Assembly: GCF_010681825.2 (NCBI RefSeq)
Contig: NZ_CP066776.1
Coordinates: 62,001 to 126,000 of the forward strand
Direction: 5' to 3'
DNA from: Sulfuriroseicoccus oceanibius
Lineage (GTDB): Bacteria; Verrucomicrobiota; Verrucomicrobiia; Verrucomicrobiales; SLCJ01
DNA: 64,000 nucleotides
Notes under the pieces: generated by a model
What the model was told of the DNA's origin: nothing
The model's database searches: none
What the model saw: only the letters and a program-made list of their open reading frames with translations
Shown: positions 3,602 through 18,108 of the stretch, one piece after another
How positions within the stretch are numbered: position 1 is the stretch's first letter
How the letters are laid out: each line of letters begins with the position of its first letter
Translations under genes and position numbers: made by a program

Positions 3602-4234
3602 ATGGGAGACCGCGATCTTTACTTCTACGACATCTCACTGCGCGACATCGCCGGAGCGATGAACCGTGGCCTCGCCATCCTTTATTACGGCGCCATGGAA
3701 GGAACCTTCGGCGGCCGCAAGAGCCCACCCGTTCCGCTCGACCGCTTCAACGCGATCCAATTCAAATTGCGCATCCCGCCAAGCATCCCATCCAAACGGC
3801 TCTACAAAAACCAGGTGCTCTTCCTCCGCAAAGAGCTGGCCAACGATCTCTGGCACGAGCGATCACTCAACACGACCCGCGTCGTCCGCCGCGTCAGCCT
3901 CACCAAAAAGCCATCACTCAAACACCACCGCATCGCGCGCATCTTTACCCCGGAGAGCCGCCCAATCCATCTGGCTCAGTTCACCGACCGTTGGACCCAT
4001 GCCCAGCGCGTGCCCGCAGCCTACAGCGATTACCTGAAAAACGAGTTCGAGGTCTTCTTTCTCCGCGCCGACGCCGATACACAGGTCATGCACCTCATCT
4101 GCGACACCATCAACCGCTCGCTAGTGGACTCGGAACGCCGTGACATCCACAGCTACGGCGACATCTACGGACCTCAGGCACCCGTCTCCCACCTCCCCGA
4201 GGAAGCCTGCGTCTCCGCGTTCCGGTTCGAGTAG
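3602..4234 (+). CDS. Uncharacterised 210-residue protein
   Basis: I do not recognise the family. The product is soluble-looking, basic in the middle (many Arg, Lys and His between residues 80 and 120) and has no signal peptide, membrane helix or cysteine-rich motif. The N-terminus (MGDRDLYFYDISLRD) and a stretch ending DIHSYGDIYG look like ordinary folded-protein sequence. Codon use resembles the neighbours, with third positions rich in C, so it is a credible gene and not a shadow. It stands alone: a terminator lies upstream and a convergent toxin gene starts 15 bases after its stop. No function is proposed. Confidence 0.7.
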   Translation: MGDRDLYFYDISLRDIAGAMNRGLAILYYGAMEGTFGGRKSPPVPLDRFNAIQFKLRIPPSIPSKRLYKNQVLFLRKELANDLWHERSLNTTRVVRRVSLTKKPSLKHHRIARIFTPESRPIHLAQFTDRWTHAQRVPAAYSDYLKNEFEVFFLRADADTQVMHLICDTINRSLVDSERRDIHSYGDIYGPQAPVSHLPEEACVSAFRFE

Positions 4235-4248
4235 AAAGAGCCCGCCAC

Positions 4249-4503
4249 TCAGTAGTGATAGCGAATCTGGGCGATCTGTATCTCGCCCTCGTCGATTCGA
4301 TACACGAGACGATGCTCCGCATTGATCCGTCTAGACCAATACCCGGCCAACCTATGCTTTAAGGGTTCGGGCTTCCCTATCCCTTCATGAAGGTTCCGGT
4401 CGATATCTTTGATCAAATCATTAACCTTCCGCAACATGCGCTTGTCGGTCTTCTGCCAGTGGAGGTAATCCTCCCACGCTTGGTCCGAGAAAACCTTCCT
4501 CAT
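4249..4503 (-). CDS. yoeB: YoeB-type toxin, ribosome-dependent mRNA endonuclease
   Basis: An 84-residue RelE/YoeB-family toxin that cleaves mRNA in the ribosomal A site. It has exactly the length of E. coli YoeB, and the catalytic residues fall at the same numbers: Glu46, Arg65, His83 and Tyr84, the protein ending in RYHY. It is therefore probably active. Its ATG overlaps the stop of the upstream antitoxin gene by 4 bases (ATGA), the usual translational coupling of this family. It converges on the unknown gene ending at 4234. Expression should be under the YefM-YoeB operator at 4753-4772. Identification is firm. Confidence 0.95.
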   Translation of the reverse strand: MRKVFSDQAWEDYLHWQKTDKRMLRKVNDLIKDIDRNLHEGIGKPEPLKHRLAGYWSRRINAEHRLVYRIDEGEIQIAQIRYHY

Positions 4504-4751
4504 TTCGCCAGCGGCCGCTCCTTACCTTTGCCTGATTCCAGCTGCTCGAGCGAGAGAAGCAGTCGCGAGGCATTCTTCGGACTCCGCAGCAGGTACGCCG
4601 TTTCCTGCATGGATTCGTAATCTTCCAACGACATCATCACGACCGAATCGGTCCCCTTCTTGGTGATAACCACAGGGTCATGATTCTCACAAACTTCTGA
4701 GATGGTACGAGCGAGGTGCGCGCGAGCGTGAGAGTAAGTGACCGCCTTCAT
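4500..4751 (-). CDS. yefM: YefM-type antitoxin, Phd/YefM family
   Basis: An 83-residue antitoxin that binds and blocks YoeB and represses its own operon. The N-terminal ~60 residues match the Phd/YefM DNA-binding and dimerisation fold (MKAVTYSHAR at the start, then VVITKKGTDSVVMMSLEDYE). The C-terminal tail (LEQLESGKGKERPLAK) would wrap the toxin. The frame is open far upstream, but MKAVTYS is the standard family start; the alternative ATG three codons earlier (MYNMKAV) lies inside the operator palindrome and is less likely. The stop overlaps the yoeB start by 4 bases. Confidence 0.93.
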   Translation of the reverse strand: MKAVTYSHARAHLARTISEVCENHDPVVITKKGTDSVVMMSLEDYESMQETAYLLRSPKNASRLLLSLEQLESGKGKERPLAK

Positions 4752-4752
4752 G

Positions 4753-4772
4753 TTGTACATAATATCGTACAA
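4753..4772. promoter_or_regulatory. Palindromic operator of yefM-yoeB
   Basis: TTGTAC (4753-4758) and GTACAA (4767-4772) form an inverted repeat directly upstream of the yefM ATG and include a TGTACA hexamer (4754-4759). TGTACA is the core known from the E. coli yefM-yoeB operator, so autoregulation by the YefM-YoeB complex is likely. Seen: the palindrome. Inferred: its binding. Confidence 0.7.
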
Positions 4773-4850
4773 CGATACAGAAACGCAACGACTTAGGAAC
4801 CACTCAAATATTCCTCTCGCCATCCTGTCCATCTGCGGACACATCTCCCC

Positions 4851-4875
4851 TCTGCGTCTTCGCGTCTCTGCGTGA
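4851..4875 (-). repeat. Dispersed repeat, family B (ACGCAGAGACGC type)
   Basis: Reads on the minus strand as CACGCAGAGACGCGAAGACGC, slightly degenerate repeats of about 8-9 bases. Other copies are at 18211-18238, 30396-30424 and 60386-60411. It lies between acuI and yefM. Confidence 0.7.
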
Positions 4876-4885
4876 GCCTCCTCCC

Positions 4886-5869
4886 TCACCGATTCACGTC
4901 GACCACGACGCGCCCCCGAATCTTGCCTTCCAACAGCTGCCCCGCGCAGTCGACCGCATCGCTCAGCCCGATTTCCCGGCGGATGGTCTCGAGCTTCGTC
5001 AAATCGAGGTCGTGACTCAACCGACGCCATGCCTCCACCCGCTCAGATCGCGGGCACATCACACTGTCGATCCCGACCAAGGTCACGCCGCGGAGAATGA
5101 ACGGCGCCACCGTTGATGGAAAATCCATACCGCCCGCAAGACCACAAGCAGTGACAATCCCACGGTAATTCATCGACGCGCAGACATTTGCCAACGTGTG
5201 GCTCCCCACCACGTCAACCGCGCCTGCCCAGCGTTGTTTCGCCAGCGGACGTCCCGGCCCATCCAAGACCGAGCGATCCATCACCTCTGACGCTCCCAAA
5301 TTCTGCAGGTAGTCAGCCTCCTCCGGCCTTCCACTGACAGCCACTACCTTGAATCCAAGCCTCGCCAGCACGGCGATCGCAACGCTCCCCACCCCACCGG
5401 CCGCACCGGTCACGACAATCTCGCCATCATCCGGCGTCACACCGTGCCGCTCCAGCGCCATCACACAAAGCATCGCCGTGTAGCCAGCCGTCCCGATCGC
5501 CATCGCCTGCTGGGGGCGCATGCCCTCAGGCAGAGGAACCAACCATTCGCCATTGAGCCGGGCCCGCTGCGCCAGCCCGCCCCAATGGCCTTCTCCAATC
5601 CCCCAACCATTCGCGATCACCTCATCGCCCGGCTTGTAGTCAGGATGCGCCGAATCCTCCACCACCCCGACCAAATCAATGCCAGGCACCATCGGAAACT
5701 GCCGCACCACCGGCCCCTTGTTCGTGATCGCCAATGCGTCCTTGTAATTGAGCGTCGAATGACTCACCCGCACGGTCACATCGCCCTCAGGCAACTGCTC
5801 TTCAGTCAACTCCTCCACTCCCGCGCGGACACCCGCGTCGTCTTTCTCGATTAAGATCCCTTTGAACAT
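4886..5869 (-). CDS. acuI: Acrylyl-CoA reductase / YhdH-type MDR oxidoreductase
   Basis: A 327-residue medium-chain reductase of the YhdH/AcuI family, zinc-independent and NADPH-dependent. Family members reduce acrylyl-CoA to propionyl-CoA, which detoxifies acrylate in DMSP and 3-hydroxypropionate metabolism. The protein opens [11 protein letters not shown] and has the family signature [10 protein letters not shown] near residue 40, the GIDLVG turn, and a Rossmann nucleotide-binding loop [11 protein letters not shown] in the middle. No structural zinc Cys cluster is seen. The ATG at 5869 gives the usual family length; the longer open frame upstream adds 34 residues with no homology. It stands alone, downstream of panC with 270 bases between, and no dmd or prp genes are near, so the physiological substrate is uncertain. 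Confidence 0.85.
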
Positions 5870-6140
5870 AGTCGCTGCGTGTTGTGGCCGCCCTCGTGAC
5901 TCACCCCGAGGGCCCAAACCGAACCAGCCACGATACGACCCAGACCCCGAGGGTCGACCAAAGGAATCCATCCGCCGGATAATCCACCCGTCACTTCACA
6001 ATGCACCCACAACCTGTGGTCGCCTCCACCCAACTGGCCAAGCGTGCGATCCCAGCCCTACAACTCACGCCACCCGCAGGCCGCGGCAATCGCTCCGCAG
6101 CCCACTCACCTCCCTACTTCCTACGCGCTACCCGCTACTC

Positions 6141-14703: not shown

Positions 14704-15231
14704 ATGGGAATCGAAATCGAACGACGCTTTTTGGTGGATCAGGAGCTCGCCGACCAGTGGCGCACCTATCCCTCGCAAGCGGTGCTCCAAGGCTACATCG
14801 CCCGCGACGGCCTGGGATCGCAGGTGCGCGTTCGCATCGTCGATAACAAAGCCCGACTCACCGTCAAAGGCACACGTACCGGCTGCAGCCGCCCCGAGTA
14901 TGAGTTTGAAATCCCACTGCGCGAAGCCGAAGCCATGCTCGACGAACTCCACGTCGGGGATCTGATCGAAAAACGCCGCTACCGCGTCCCCTACGAGGGC
15001 TACATCTGGGAAGTCGACGAGTTCTACGGTGACAACACCGGACTCATCATCGCGGAAATCGAAATCCCATCGGCCGACACCCCCTTCGACAAACCCGCGT
15101 GGATCGGCCGCGAGATCACCGAGCTCGACCGTTACGGCAACGCCGCACTGTCCATACGACCAATCAACCGATGGTCACAGGAAGATCAACTCTCCGCCGT
15201 AGAACCAGCGGCCACAGATGGGCTCAGATAA
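14704..15231 (+). CDS. CYTH-domain triphosphate tunnel metalloenzyme
   Basis: 175 residues of the CYTH superfamily, whose bacterial members hydrolyse inorganic triphosphate or nucleoside triphosphates in a tunnel of charged strands. It begins MGIEIERRFLV, where the signature ExExK reads EIERR: Arg at residue 8 in place of Lys. Later strands show QVRVRIVDNKARLTVKG, EYEFEIPL, EKRRYRVPY, EVDEFYG and IAEIEI, in the family order. The ATG at 14704 is unambiguous because the motif starts at residue 4. The C-terminal ~15 residues run into a family-E repeat and may be a recent extension. The Lys-to-Arg change may be tolerated or may alter activity; not known. Confidence 0.85.
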   Translation: MGIEIERRFLVDQELADQWRTYPSQAVLQGYIARDGLGSQVRVRIVDNKARLTVKGTRTGCSRPEYEFEIPLREAEAMLDELHVGDLIEKRRYRVPYEGYIWEVDEFYGDNTGLIIAEIEIPSADTPFDKPAWIGREITELDRYGNAALSIRPINRWSQEDQLSAVEPAATDGLR

Positions 15232-15734
15232 GCACAGATGACCTTAACCTTACGACGGATCTCGCTGCGCTCCGATCAGGATTTGGATAAGGACACCAGG
15301 CATAGCCCCATCATTCCACCCACGCTCACAGACACGCTGCCGCTGAACACTGCCAGCTAAAAACCAGCAAACTCCACTGCGCCTCGATCCGCCCCGTCGC
15401 GCAGCGACGTCTTACCGGCTAGCCGGAGGTTTCAACCTCCGGTCCCACACCGAAAAATGGGCTCGTCCCGCAGGGACGGTTTACTCAGGTACACACTCCG
15501 ATAAACCGCACCTTCGGCGCGCGACCATCCGCATCCCCATCCTGCGGATGAATCCGCAGGCTAACCGGTAAACCATCGCTCCGCGATGCGCGGCGACCAC
15601 CAACTCGAGGCACATCGCAGCGATCCGATCAGGATTTAGATAACGATAAGGATAAAGACGCCGGCCCTCGTCTCATCCATCCCCGTCCGCAGACGCTCTG
15701 CGGCTGAAAACAGCCAGATGAACACTAGCAAACT
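15232..15734. other. Repeat-filled intergenic region, no gene
   Basis: 503 bases between two convergent genes. It contains a family-E copy near 15211-15240, a family-A element (15396-15480), an inverted repeat CCTGCGGAT / ATCCGCAGG near 15541-15561, and the phrase ACACTAGCAAACT near 15722 that recurs near 32828. No promoter, RNA or ORF is convincing. Confidence 0.65.
15396..15480 (+). repeat. Dispersed triple-hairpin repeat, family A
   Basis: GTCGCGCAGCGAC, then CCGGAGG-TTTCAA-CCTCCGG, then CGTCCC-GCA-GGGACG. Bases 15411-15443 are identical to 9354-9386. The spacing between the second and third hairpin differs by a few bases between the two copies. Confidence 0.8.
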
Positions 15735-17021
15735 CTACTGAGACAACACCATGAACAAGACGATCACGGCAAGGATCGCCAACACGACAAAGGTGATTTT
15801 CCACGGACTGAGCGGGTAATCGGCGGCACCGGTGCCGGTGTAGGCATTCACGATGGCCTGACGGTTCTTGCCGCGGAATCGGTACGACGCCAGCCACACC
15901 GGCAGGAGAATATGCTTAAATGTTTGGTCGCTGTAGCTCGGTTGGATCCGCAAATTGCGATAGGTGTCGCCCGGGACGTCACGGCCGCACATGCGTTCCA
16001 ACATAGCGTGCATCTGCTGGCGCCCTTGCACCGCCGCATCTTTCAGCGGCACTTGGTAATGCTCCACCTGCCACCCCGAGACGTAGCGGGTTTCATACCC
16101 GACCAGCTCATCGGTAGGAAATGGTTCCACTTGGTCGAGCAGCTTCGGGTCCGTGCCGCGCGACCCACGCACGGTGACGTCATCAAAGGCAGTGGATATT
16201 CGCCCCGATGCCGGACGCCAGCGGGTCTTGCGCACTTGGCGCGACTGGCGCTTTCCGTTGGCATCAGTGTAATACTCGGTCTCCCAGTAGTACGTGCCGG
16301 AATCGGCCGTCCACGGGCAGTCCGCCGCCGCATCGAATGTCCAATACGGCAGGTAGACGCGGTGGAAACGATCCATGAAATTGCGCCGCTTGAGGTCGCT
16401 CGGCGCAAACCAGCGTGACGCGAGAAACCCTTTGATCGTGTGGTACGCCTGTTCCTGGCTCACCTTCGCCGGCAGCACTGCCCACGGTTTGATCGGCGCG
16501 TCAATATCCTCGTAGTCGAGCAACTCGGGAGCGCCGCAGAAATCACAATGCTGCGCCACCATTTCCGATGACCGCACCAACACGGCGTGGCAACTCTTGC
16601 ACTGCACGCGGCGCGTGGTTTTGACCCATTCATCGGACGATCCATCCAACCGCCCGAGCTCGGCGAGCAAGTCGCGTTCCTCGATCTCATTGAGAGCGGG
16701 CAACGCATCGTCCCCCGCCTCCTCACGCGGAAAGTTCGTCCCGCAATACGGGCAGGTCAGCATCTGCTTGGAAGCGCTCCACTCCGCCTTGCCACCGCAT
16801 TTCGGGCAGGCATGGCGGTCGAGCGAGACCACCGCCACCCCACGCTTACCGGGAAGCGGTGGGGGCACGGCATGCGGCTCGACGGCGACGGGCGACTCGT
16901 CGGTCACCGAGTCGTCATCATTCGGCACGTCGCTTACCTCTGGGTTTTCACCTGCCACAACGGAATGGTTCCTTGGTATGGGGTCGGGGTTCCACTCCGG
17001 GCTATTCAGCCAGGAAGGCAT
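15735..17021 (-). CDS. Zinc-ribbon membrane protein, partner of SPFH gene
   Basis: 428 residues. A Pro/Asp-rich lead is followed by two zinc-ribbon-like units: CPKCGG...CPYCG near residues 72-95, and CKSC...CDFCG near 140-165. A conserved central region with many Trp and Tyr (YLPYWTFDAAADCPW, WRPASGR, FPTDELVGYE, HILLPVWLASY) follows, and one hydrophobic C-terminal helix (last ~25 residues) closes it. It is therefore probably a tail-anchored cytoplasmic protein. It resembles the uncharacterised zinc-ribbon TM proteins often named, misleadingly, as primosomal/helicase-related. Its start overlaps the SPFH gene 3' end by 20 bases, so the two are translationally linked and likely act together. 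Function unknown. Confidence 0.82.
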   Translation of the reverse strand: MPSWLNSPEWNPDPIPRNHSVVAGENPEVSDVPNDDDSVTDESPVAVEPHAVPPPLPGKRGVAVVSLDRHACPKCGGKAEWSASKQMLTCPYCGTNFPREEAGDDALPALNEIEERDLLAELGRLDGSSDEWVKTTRRVQCKSCHAVLVRSSEMVAQHCDFCGAPELLDYEDIDAPIKPWAVLPAKVSQEQAYHTIKGFLASRWFAPSDLKRRNFMDRFHRVYLPYWTFDAAADCPWTADSGTYYWETEYYTDANGKRQSRQVRKTRWRPASGRISTAFDDVTVRGSRGTDPKLLDQVEPFPTDELVGYETRYVSGWQVEHYQVPLKDAAVQGRQQMHAMLERMCGRDVPGDTYRNLRIQPSYSDQTFKHILLPVWLASYRFRGKNRQAIVNAYTGTGAADYPLSPWKITFVVLAILAVIVLFMVLSQ

Positions 17022-18108
17022 CCAAGGCGCTGCGGGAAATCCGATAGCTCGATCCGATCTTCTTAGCCGACAAATTGCCGGCCTGAATCTCAGCCATCAC
17101 ATCGTCTTCCGACACCCCGAGAACCTGCGAAACTTCCGCTGGGTTCATCAGCTGAGGCAAACCTCCGCCGACTGGTGCTGCGGGAGTCGCTGCTGCCGCA
17201 CCGGCAGCCACCGCACCAGCCCCGAGCGGGTTGGTCATGCCGCCTCCAGCCACGCCGGATTGCTTCATCAACTCCTGGGCAATCGAGAACCCAACCGCCA
17301 ACTCAGTGGCAGCTCCAGCACCACCGGCACCGCCACCCTCGCCAGACGCCATGCCCTGGCCCATCTGGTACTTGATGTAGGAATTGAGGTCGCCAATAGC
17401 CGACATCGCGGAGCGCTTGTCGATCGCTTCTTCGACTTCCGGCGGAACCGATACGTTCTCAACAATGAACGACGCGATCTCGATACCGTATTTGGTGCTC
17501 AGCACCGGGTTGATCAACGGCAACAACGCATCACCAAGATCGGTGTAACGGGTCGCCACATCGAGCATCGGCACATTTGCCGACGCCAGCGCATCGGAGA
17601 ACACACTGACAATGCGCGAACGCATCGCATCACCAAACTCATCGACACGGAAATCGTGGTCGCTTCCGGCCACCTCCTTGAGGAAGGTTTGCACATTGAC
17701 CACGCGGAAGTCGTACGTTCCGAACGCACGGGCACGGACAATACCAAAGTCCGGATCACGCAGCATGATTGGGTTGGACGTCCCCCATTTGTTGCCGGTA
17801 AAGAGCCGCGTGTTGACGTAATAGACGTCGGCCTTGAAGGGACTCTGGAACCCATACTTCCAGCCCTTGAGGCGGGTCAGCACCGGAATGTTATCCGTTT
17901 CGAGCGAATGCTTGCCCGGCCCGAAGGTGTCACCAAACTGCCCTAGGTAGACAAACTGAGCGGTCTGGCTTTCGCGAACAATCAGCTGTGCGCCGTTCTT
18001 GATCGCTTTGTCATCATCCGGAAAGCGCCATGCGATGGTGTCCCGGCTGTCGTCCTGCCACTCGATGATTTCGAGCAACTCTCCTTTGATAAAGTCCATG
18101 AGTCCCAT
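17002..18108 (-). CDS. SPFH-domain protein with C-terminal excisionase-like HTH
   Basis: 368 residues. The first ~230 residues form an SPFH (virion core protein/YdjI-like) domain: MGLMDFIKGELLEIIEW, LIVRESQTAQFVYLGQ, FGPGKHSLETDNIPVL, RAFGTYDFRV, YGIEIASFIVENVSVP. A Gly/Ala-rich linker (about 260-315) leads to a last ~50-residue segment reading LMNPAEVSQVLGVSEDDVMAEI...GSSYRISRSALDAFL, a typical excisionase/MerR-like helix-turn-helix. The SPFH class usually ends in a zinc ribbon or GYF-like domain, so the HTH tail is unusual; here the zinc ribbons sit in the overlapping next gene. Start ATG at 18108 chosen on the family N-terminus. Function unknown; it possibly assembles oligomers at the membrane. 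Confidence 0.87.
   Translation of the reverse strand: MGLMDFIKGELLEIIEWQDDSRDTIAWRFPDDDKAIKNGAQLIVRESQTAQFVYLGQFGDTFGPGKHSLETDNIPVLTRLKGWKYGFQSPFKADVYYVNTRLFTGNKWGTSNPIMLRDPDFGIVRARAFGTYDFRVVNVQTFLKEVAGSDHDFRVDEFGDAMRSRIVSVFSDALASANVPMLDVATRYTDLGDALLPLINPVLSTKYGIEIASFIVENVSVPPEVEEAIDKRSAMSAIGDLNSYIKYQMGQGMASGEGGGAGGAGAATELAVGFSIAQELMKQSGVAGGGMTNPLGAGAVAAGAAAATPAAPVGGGLPQLMNPAEVSQVLGVSEDDVMAEIQAGNLSAKKIGSSYRISRSALDAFLAE

Follow-up and report, generated by a model that had tools for sequence, protein, structure and literature searches.

A helix-turn-helix tail on an SPFH protein paired with a zinc-ribbon membrane protein: a tail variant of the YdjI/YdjG-type pair

Introduction

The closest described relatives of the two genes considered here belong to the pspA-ydjGHI operon of Bacillus subtilis, which encodes the SPFH protein YdjI (named YdjL in PMC11237479). 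According to the accessible text of that source, YdjG has a pair of zinc ribbons, an NTF2-like domain related to YpeB, and a membrane segment; YdjH is described there as a TPM protein. In the available part of PMC8581546, the foci of both YdjI and PspA are reported to be lost without YdjG or YdjH. A related pair is encoded on 64,000 nucleotides (nt) of the genome of Sulfuriroseicoccus oceanibius, order Verrucomicrobiales (contig NZ_CP066776.1, positions 62,001 to 126,000; this whole stretch is here called the window, and positions are counted from its first letter). One gene encodes an SPFH protein with a C-terminal helix-turn-helix (HTH) domain of the excisionase type, the other a membrane protein with two zinc ribbons. 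The fusion is conserved, the two genes co-occur and are inherited together, the tail is exchanged for other domains in sister proteins, and its recognition helix differs in charge from that of ordinary HTH_17 domains. We consider it probable that the two proteins form a submembrane scaffold of the YdjI/YdjG type, in which an HTH fold has been reused as an exchangeable docking tail.

Relation to described systems

The locus shares with pspA-ydjGHI the pairing of an SPFH protein with a protein that has two zinc ribbons and a membrane segment; a YpeB-related domain is described for YdjG, and the domain after the ribbons of the partner is weakly like it. It differs in that the SPFH protein ends in an HTH and not in C-terminal zinc ribbons, that the SPFH gene precedes that of the partner, that PspA is encoded at a distance, and that the genome has no match to TPM/YdjH. 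The ribbons that define YdjI are thus missing, which bars that name; assignment to the Band_7_1 family is unaffected because such ribbons are one of several Band_7_1 tails. Nor does the window hold pspA and ydjH in one operon, the arrangement that marks the PspA-Ydj envelope-stress system. An earlier note on this DNA had taken the placement of the ribbons on the membrane protein for an unusual split, an impression that does not hold, since YdjG is described with the same layout in the accessible text of PMC11237479.

Plasmids of Paracoccus, Vibrio and Tsukamurella carry two genes in the same order as the window, with a clear homologue of the partner, but there the SPFH tail is GYF_2 and not HTH. 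On an Enterococcus plasmid, an SPFH gene with C-terminal CxxC ribbons (under the Pfam cut-off and assigned from their CxxC motifs) is followed by a gene for a ribbon protein and then by a TPM-domain gene, which is the YdjI/YdjG/YdjH set of B. subtilis in another order. When searched against a set of 17 proteins, a profile of the partner matched the partners from these four genera with E values of 3.8e-97 to 1.8e-52, the last being that of the Enterococcus protein beside the TPM gene. As for their surroundings, genes for ‘toxic anion resistance’ and DUF2927 proteins lie upstream of the Paracoccus pair on the same strand (3719–5919 of the record), and some 3 kb away from the Vibrio pair, on the other strand, there is a gene for a TIR-domain protein (2093–2962 of the record).

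The same kind of protein is annotated by NCBI in Comamonas as ‘SPFH and helix-turn-helix domain-containing protein’, with a ‘TFIIB-type zinc ribbon-containing protein’ downstream; this is an annotation name only, under which a full-text search returned no paper. In the literature searched, which left out most subscription papers and all bioRxiv preprints, no study of an SPFH-HTH fusion was found. The NCBI pipeline has already named the fusion, and what is new in the pair, against the known two-protein scaffold, is its tail.

The SPFH-HTH protein

The features of the gene are as follows:

17002–18108, minus strand: SPFH-HTH gene (YdjI-type candidate scaffold), 368 amino acids plus stop, ATG at 18108
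17401–18030, minus strand: Band_7_1/SPFH domain, residues 27–236 (Pfam PF13421, E 6.5e-83)
17155–17343, minus strand: variable linker rich in Gly and Ala, residues 256–318, with a short helix at 266–283 (block means of the predicted local distance difference test, pLDDT, 34–56)
17005–17151, minus strand: tail of the HTH_17/excisionase type, residues 320–368 (Pfam HTH_17, E 3.5e-9)
17080–17109, minus strand: acidic recognition helix, residues 334–343 (EDDVMAEIQA; net charge taken over residues 332–344)

That an SPFH domain is fused to an excisionase-type HTH, as the earlier note had proposed, is borne out by the family models. Band_7_1 scores 277.9 bits against a cut-off of 24 (the model also detects the B. 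subtilis protein, used as control), HTH_17 scores 37.2 bits against a curated cut-off of 27, and the NCBIfam model ‘excise’ matches the tail above its own cut-off with E 1.7e-8. The tail shares with excisionase and HTH_17 DNA-binding domains the sequence family and a confidently predicted arrangement of helices and a two-strand wing (pLDDT block means 93–96); it differs from them in its recognition helix, which is acidic instead of neutral or basic. All structure models are of monomers. That of the whole SPFH-HTH protein is poor (mean pLDDT 65.8, predicted template modelling score 0.46), confidence being confined to the tail and a portion of the SPFH domain; Foldseek matched it to HflK/C, stomatin and prohibitin (best E 6.8e-7), yet residues 35–96 have a pLDDT below 50. 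Sequence entropy is highest in the linker (1.96 bits at residues 266–318).

The membrane partner

Directly downstream lies the gene of the partner:

15735–17021, minus strand: gene of the zinc-ribbon membrane partner (YdjG-type), 428 amino acids plus stop
17002–17021, minus strand: overlap of the two genes in the window sequence, 20 nt, not conserved
16743–16808, minus strand: zinc ribbon 1, C72–C93, with invariant Cys in an alignment of 48 sequences
16536–16601, minus strand: zinc ribbon 2, C141–C162, likewise invariant
15813–16487, minus strand: conserved globular domain with long beta strands, residues ~179–403 (AlphaFold2 pLDDT block means 83–98)
15741–15806, minus strand: C-terminal membrane helix, residues 406–427, a helix in the model

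Cysteines 72, 75, 90, 93, 141, 144, 159 and 162 are invariant in the 48 aligned partners, window included, and make up two N-terminal Cys4 ribbons; none of the ribbon models of Pfam and NCBIfam is matched above its curated cut-off. A hydrophobic C-terminal stretch, as expected of a membrane segment, is present in 84 of 84 partners, which were picked for a match that reaches at least query residue 410. The earlier note was thus right to place a zinc-ribbon gene ending in a membrane helix next to the SPFH gene. By VIA-align, the globular domain is best matched by the C-terminal domain of YpeB (5boi), although weakly (Z 3.8, 66 residues, root-mean-square deviation 3.4). Foldseek returned nothing for the partner core at E 0.001 or better, and this is no evidence of a new fold.

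The overlap pointed out by the earlier note is present in the window, but it requires that translation of the partner starts at the ATG at 17021. The true start may be internal to it, because the first ~60 residues vary and fall outside the match in most relatives. An overlap is ruled out altogether in 47 of 70 relatives, as the open frame of the partner stops short of the stop codon of the SPFH gene; it is no feature of the family. Beyond the partner gene, between it and a plus-strand open reading frame (ORF) ending at 15231, the window has palindromic stretches (15411–15480) with 16-mers that seem to occur twice on the two strands of the window, although a palindrome also matches itself on the complementary strand, so that these may not be true second copies.

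Conservation of the pair

A scan of species genomes yielded 143 relatives, and the counts that follow refer to the best-scoring 80 of these 143 loci. By the names in the record titles, mostly of metagenome-assembled genomes (MAGs), they belong to Verrucomicrobiota (41), Pseudomonadota (19), Acidobacteriota (15), Gemmatimonadota (1) and Planctomycetota (1), with three unplaced; the SPFH-HTH clade thus spans five phyla, two of them by way of one MAG each. The Pseudomonadota include isolates of Comamonas and one Stenotrophomonas, and Comamonas and Haloferula are cultured hosts of the pair. Of the 80 loci, 77 match over the whole HTH tail, and the remaining three are truncated by contig ends.

An adjacent partner on the same strand was found in 70 of the 80 loci, so that the two-gene order, which the earlier note had suggested looking for in other genomes, is kept. 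Among the ten loci without an adjacent partner, five have less than 1.5 kb of DNA beyond the SPFH gene. A genome search of all ten assemblies located the partner elsewhere in five and did not detect it in the other five. Two acidobacterial assemblies with an SPFH-HTH protein extend 1.6–2.6 kb downstream and have no partner there or elsewhere, which may be a real loss or a matter of an incomplete assembly.

Of the 57 genomes from the order to which the window belongs, 17 encode the SPFH-HTH protein, each of them together with the partner, and 19 encode the partner. The two partner-only genomes are split into ~200 and ~320 contigs, and in both the partner gene sits on a contig shorter than 6 kb. 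The genes are adjacent in nine of the 17 genomes and apart in eight, all of one genus, yet both are kept there. The gene order is kept, and the two genes stay together or at least both persist. Two records titled Akkermansia muciniphila carry the pair, although MAG titles may be wrong; within the order, none of 14 genomes of one genus taken to be Akkermansia has an SPFH-HTH protein.

Clustering the ORFs of at least 110 amino acids in the 80 loci put all 80 SPFH ORFs and 69 of the 70 partner ORFs into one cluster. A second cluster (222 ORFs from 79 loci) consists of 195 other-frame ORFs within the two genes and 27 unclassified ones. No conserved third gene was found: the commonest cluster outside the two genes occurs in only 11 of 80 loci, though many of the 80 end at contig ends and a rarer third gene may have escaped. 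In two loci with long gaps between SPFH gene and partner the inserted ORFs differ. A link to defence or phages was considered and rejected: PADLOC has no family for the SPFH protein and gave weak partial ribbon matches for the partner, and the five matches in 50,697 phage records cover the SPFH core only.

Exchange of the C-terminal tail

A survey of the tails in the wider family, made on three phylum samples with the SPFH model of Pfam, gave 72 loci; the best-scoring matches only were taken, so that high scorers are favoured. The tail was GYF_2-like in 31 loci, a zinc ribbon in 16, an HTH in nine (the window included, which together with at least two others was already in the set of relatives) and something else in 16. 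These labels were given by regular expression. Pfam bore out the GYF_2 label in four proteins, the further GYF labels resting on the motif; many of 14 tails labelled ‘none/other’ look SHOCT-like by eye, and one SHOCT-like tail was found by Pfam with E 2.5e-4, under the cut-off. Members of this SPFH family differ in their C-terminal tail, which is exchanged between GYF_2, zinc ribbons, SHOCT-like and HTH domains. The earlier note had treated the tail as something other than a common SPFH accessory domain; it comes close to being just that, one of several exchangeable tails.

A partner within ~1.5 kb accompanies nine of nine HTH tails, 22 of 31 GYF tails, two of 16 ribbon tails and two of 16 others; an absent partner may lie past the 1.5-kb flank. 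One proteobacterial SPFH protein (locus 1423–2217) ends soon after the SPFH domain and has no tail domain, yet a partner adjoins it. In the Acidobacteriota set there are SPFH proteins with tails that look SHOCT-like and no partner within ~1.5 kb.

Quick trees were made from rows thinned by identity, with support from the Shimodaira–Hasegawa-like approximate likelihood ratio test (SH-aLRT) only and a midpoint root for drawing only. In the tree of the SPFH core, from which the tail columns were excluded, the HTH-tailed proteins, 101 reduced to 32 rows, all group in a single clade (SH-aLRT 100), and relatives with other tails fall outside it; the non-HTH tails switch repeatedly, with 12 tail changes in total against a mean of 47.3 after shuffling. 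The HTH-type partners, too, form one clade in their tree (43 rows and two unlinked copies from HTH genomes, SH-aLRT 99). Read most simply, these trees point to a single gain of the HTH, which was then inherited together with the partner and crossed phyla.

Charge of the recognition helix

Over residues 332–344, the net charge is -4 to -2 in 92 tails (mean -3.13) and 0 to +3 in 24 control HTH_17 domains (mean +1.17), so that the two ranges do not overlap and the tail lacks the neutral or positive helix of an ordinary HTH_17. D336 is present in 92 of 92 tails and E334 in 82. The 92 tails, among them that of the window, had been selected because their match extended to residue 360, and hence they cannot show that the tail is constantly retained, for which the set of 80 loci serves instead. 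The controls are ordinary HTH_17 domains of the same order from 70 loci. Of these, 47 gave an alignment with the tail model, 24 of the 47 being distinct; many of the 47 belong to one orthologous family, and they were aligned by their similarity to the tail. At E 1e-4 the tail model had 17 strong matches in the 57 genomes (E 4.5e-23 or better), no genome having more than one and each lying at the end of an SPFH protein; six further matches were weak (3.5e-7 or weaker), at sites also found by the ordinary HTH_17 model.

The acidic helix, together with the exchange of the tail with GYF_2 and SHOCT-like tails, makes protein docking or self-assembly more likely as its role than the reading of DNA. 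Neither GYF_2 nor SHOCT-like tails are known to bind DNA, and GYF is a peptide binder. A literature search returned no account of excisionase HTHs that do not bind DNA.

What the pair may do

The scaffold that we consider probable would work as follows. As in the SPFH family at large, the SPFH protein would oligomerise in the cytoplasm. The single C-terminal helix of the partner would anchor it in the membrane, with the ribbons and the YpeB-like domain presumably on the cytoplasmic side, and by analogy with the foci of YdjI and PspA in B. subtilis the partner probably recruits the SPFH oligomer to the inner membrane. On its flexible linker, the C-terminal tail would be an exchangeable docking module, and in the HTH clade an excisionase/HTH_17 fold seems to have been captured once, in the place held by GYF_2, zinc-ribbon or SHOCT-like tails in sister proteins. 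With its former DNA-reading helix turned acidic, the tail probably binds a protein, which may be its own partner, ribbon 2 being less acidic in the HTH clade, or a client. The pair as a whole may serve in the maintenance of the membrane or the envelope.

Several observations weigh against this scaffold or limit it. In B. subtilis, the two-hybrid contact reported for YdjI in the accessible text of PMC8581546 is YdjH and not YdjG, and the partner is likened to YdjG by the published description of its layout. A genome search did not detect the partner in five of the 80 assemblies with an SPFH-HTH protein, although these assemblies may be incomplete. The two B. subtilis companions are poorly represented: by Pfam search no TPM/YdjH was found in the genome of the window (assembly 95.5% complete), and PspA exceeds the Pfam cut-off in four of the 17 SPFH-HTH genomes of the order, compared with 15 of the 40 without SPFH-HTH, and in four of 13 further SPFH-HTH genomes. 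As for the tail itself, its wing (residues 345–358) is basic, with a mean charge of +3.2 against +2.75 in the controls and R356 in 92 of 92 tails, so that helix acidity disfavours ordinary DNA reading while binding through the wing may still occur; and the HTH tails are one clade, which makes the charge difference one evolutionary event. Finally, both ribbons of the partner and the stretch between them are on average net negative in HTH-type partners as well (mean -1.80, and -5.65 in partners of GYF_2- or ribbon-tailed proteins).

Because PspA is rare and TPM/YdjH has no match in the window's genome, a function cannot be copied from B. subtilis without further ado. PspA as an obligatory client is unsupported by its co-occurrence. 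We regard it as very unlikely that PspA is tied to the membrane by the SPFH protein, by way of the YdjG-like partner, in a membrane repair of the B. subtilis kind, even though PspA localisation at the membrane there needs YdjI and the Ydj membrane proteins (according to the available part of PMC8581546) and the genome of the window does encode one PspA, ~850 kb away. The link between membrane and nucleic acid that the earlier note had proposed is also made unlikely by the acidic recognition helix. In such a case the tail would bind DNA through the wing or non-specifically, and the SPFH ring would tether DNA or a promoter, or else the protein would be a membrane-sequestered regulator; the assignment to HTH_17 and ‘excise’ and the retained basic wing would fit, and the zinc ribbon of YdjG has been termed DNA-binding (accessible text of PMC9239133), but the invariant D336, the frequent E334 and the place of the tail, taken in sister proteins by GYF_2 and SHOCT-like domains, argue against it.

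Two other roles for the tail keep it among proteins. It might contact the tails of neighbouring subunits and so set the size or stacking of the ring with no external client, a possible though rather doubtful role; the opposite charges of helix and wing in one domain would suit it, and SHOCT, found at the same place in sister proteins, is most often associated with Band_7_1 and discussed under oligomeric proteins in the part of PMC3581485 available, whereas inheritance together with a distinct partner clade is slightly better explained by a tail that contacts something co-varying. We mention with some scepticism that the captured HTH might be a DNA-mimic-like plug that engages the second ribbon of the partner, a DNA-binding fold turned into a scaffold connector in at least five phyla. 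Ribbon 2 has a mean net charge of +1.02 across 56 HTH-type partners, against -1.65 across 20 partners whose SPFH protein has a GYF_2 or ribbon tail; p-values on this difference mean little because the HTH-type partners are one clade, and as a single-clade comparison the contrast is no more than a hint.

Implications

If the scaffold with an HTH docking tail is the right description, the main interest of the pair lies in the apparent reuse of the HTH fold. The C-terminal tail of this widespread SPFH family is a module open to exchange, and one version of it, from a family of DNA-binding folds, is a probable protein-docking domain; ‘HTH’ in an annotation need not mean DNA binding. The pairing of an SPFH protein with a ribbon-bearing membrane protein persists in many bacteria without PspA, so that its basic function is to be sought outside the phage-shock response.

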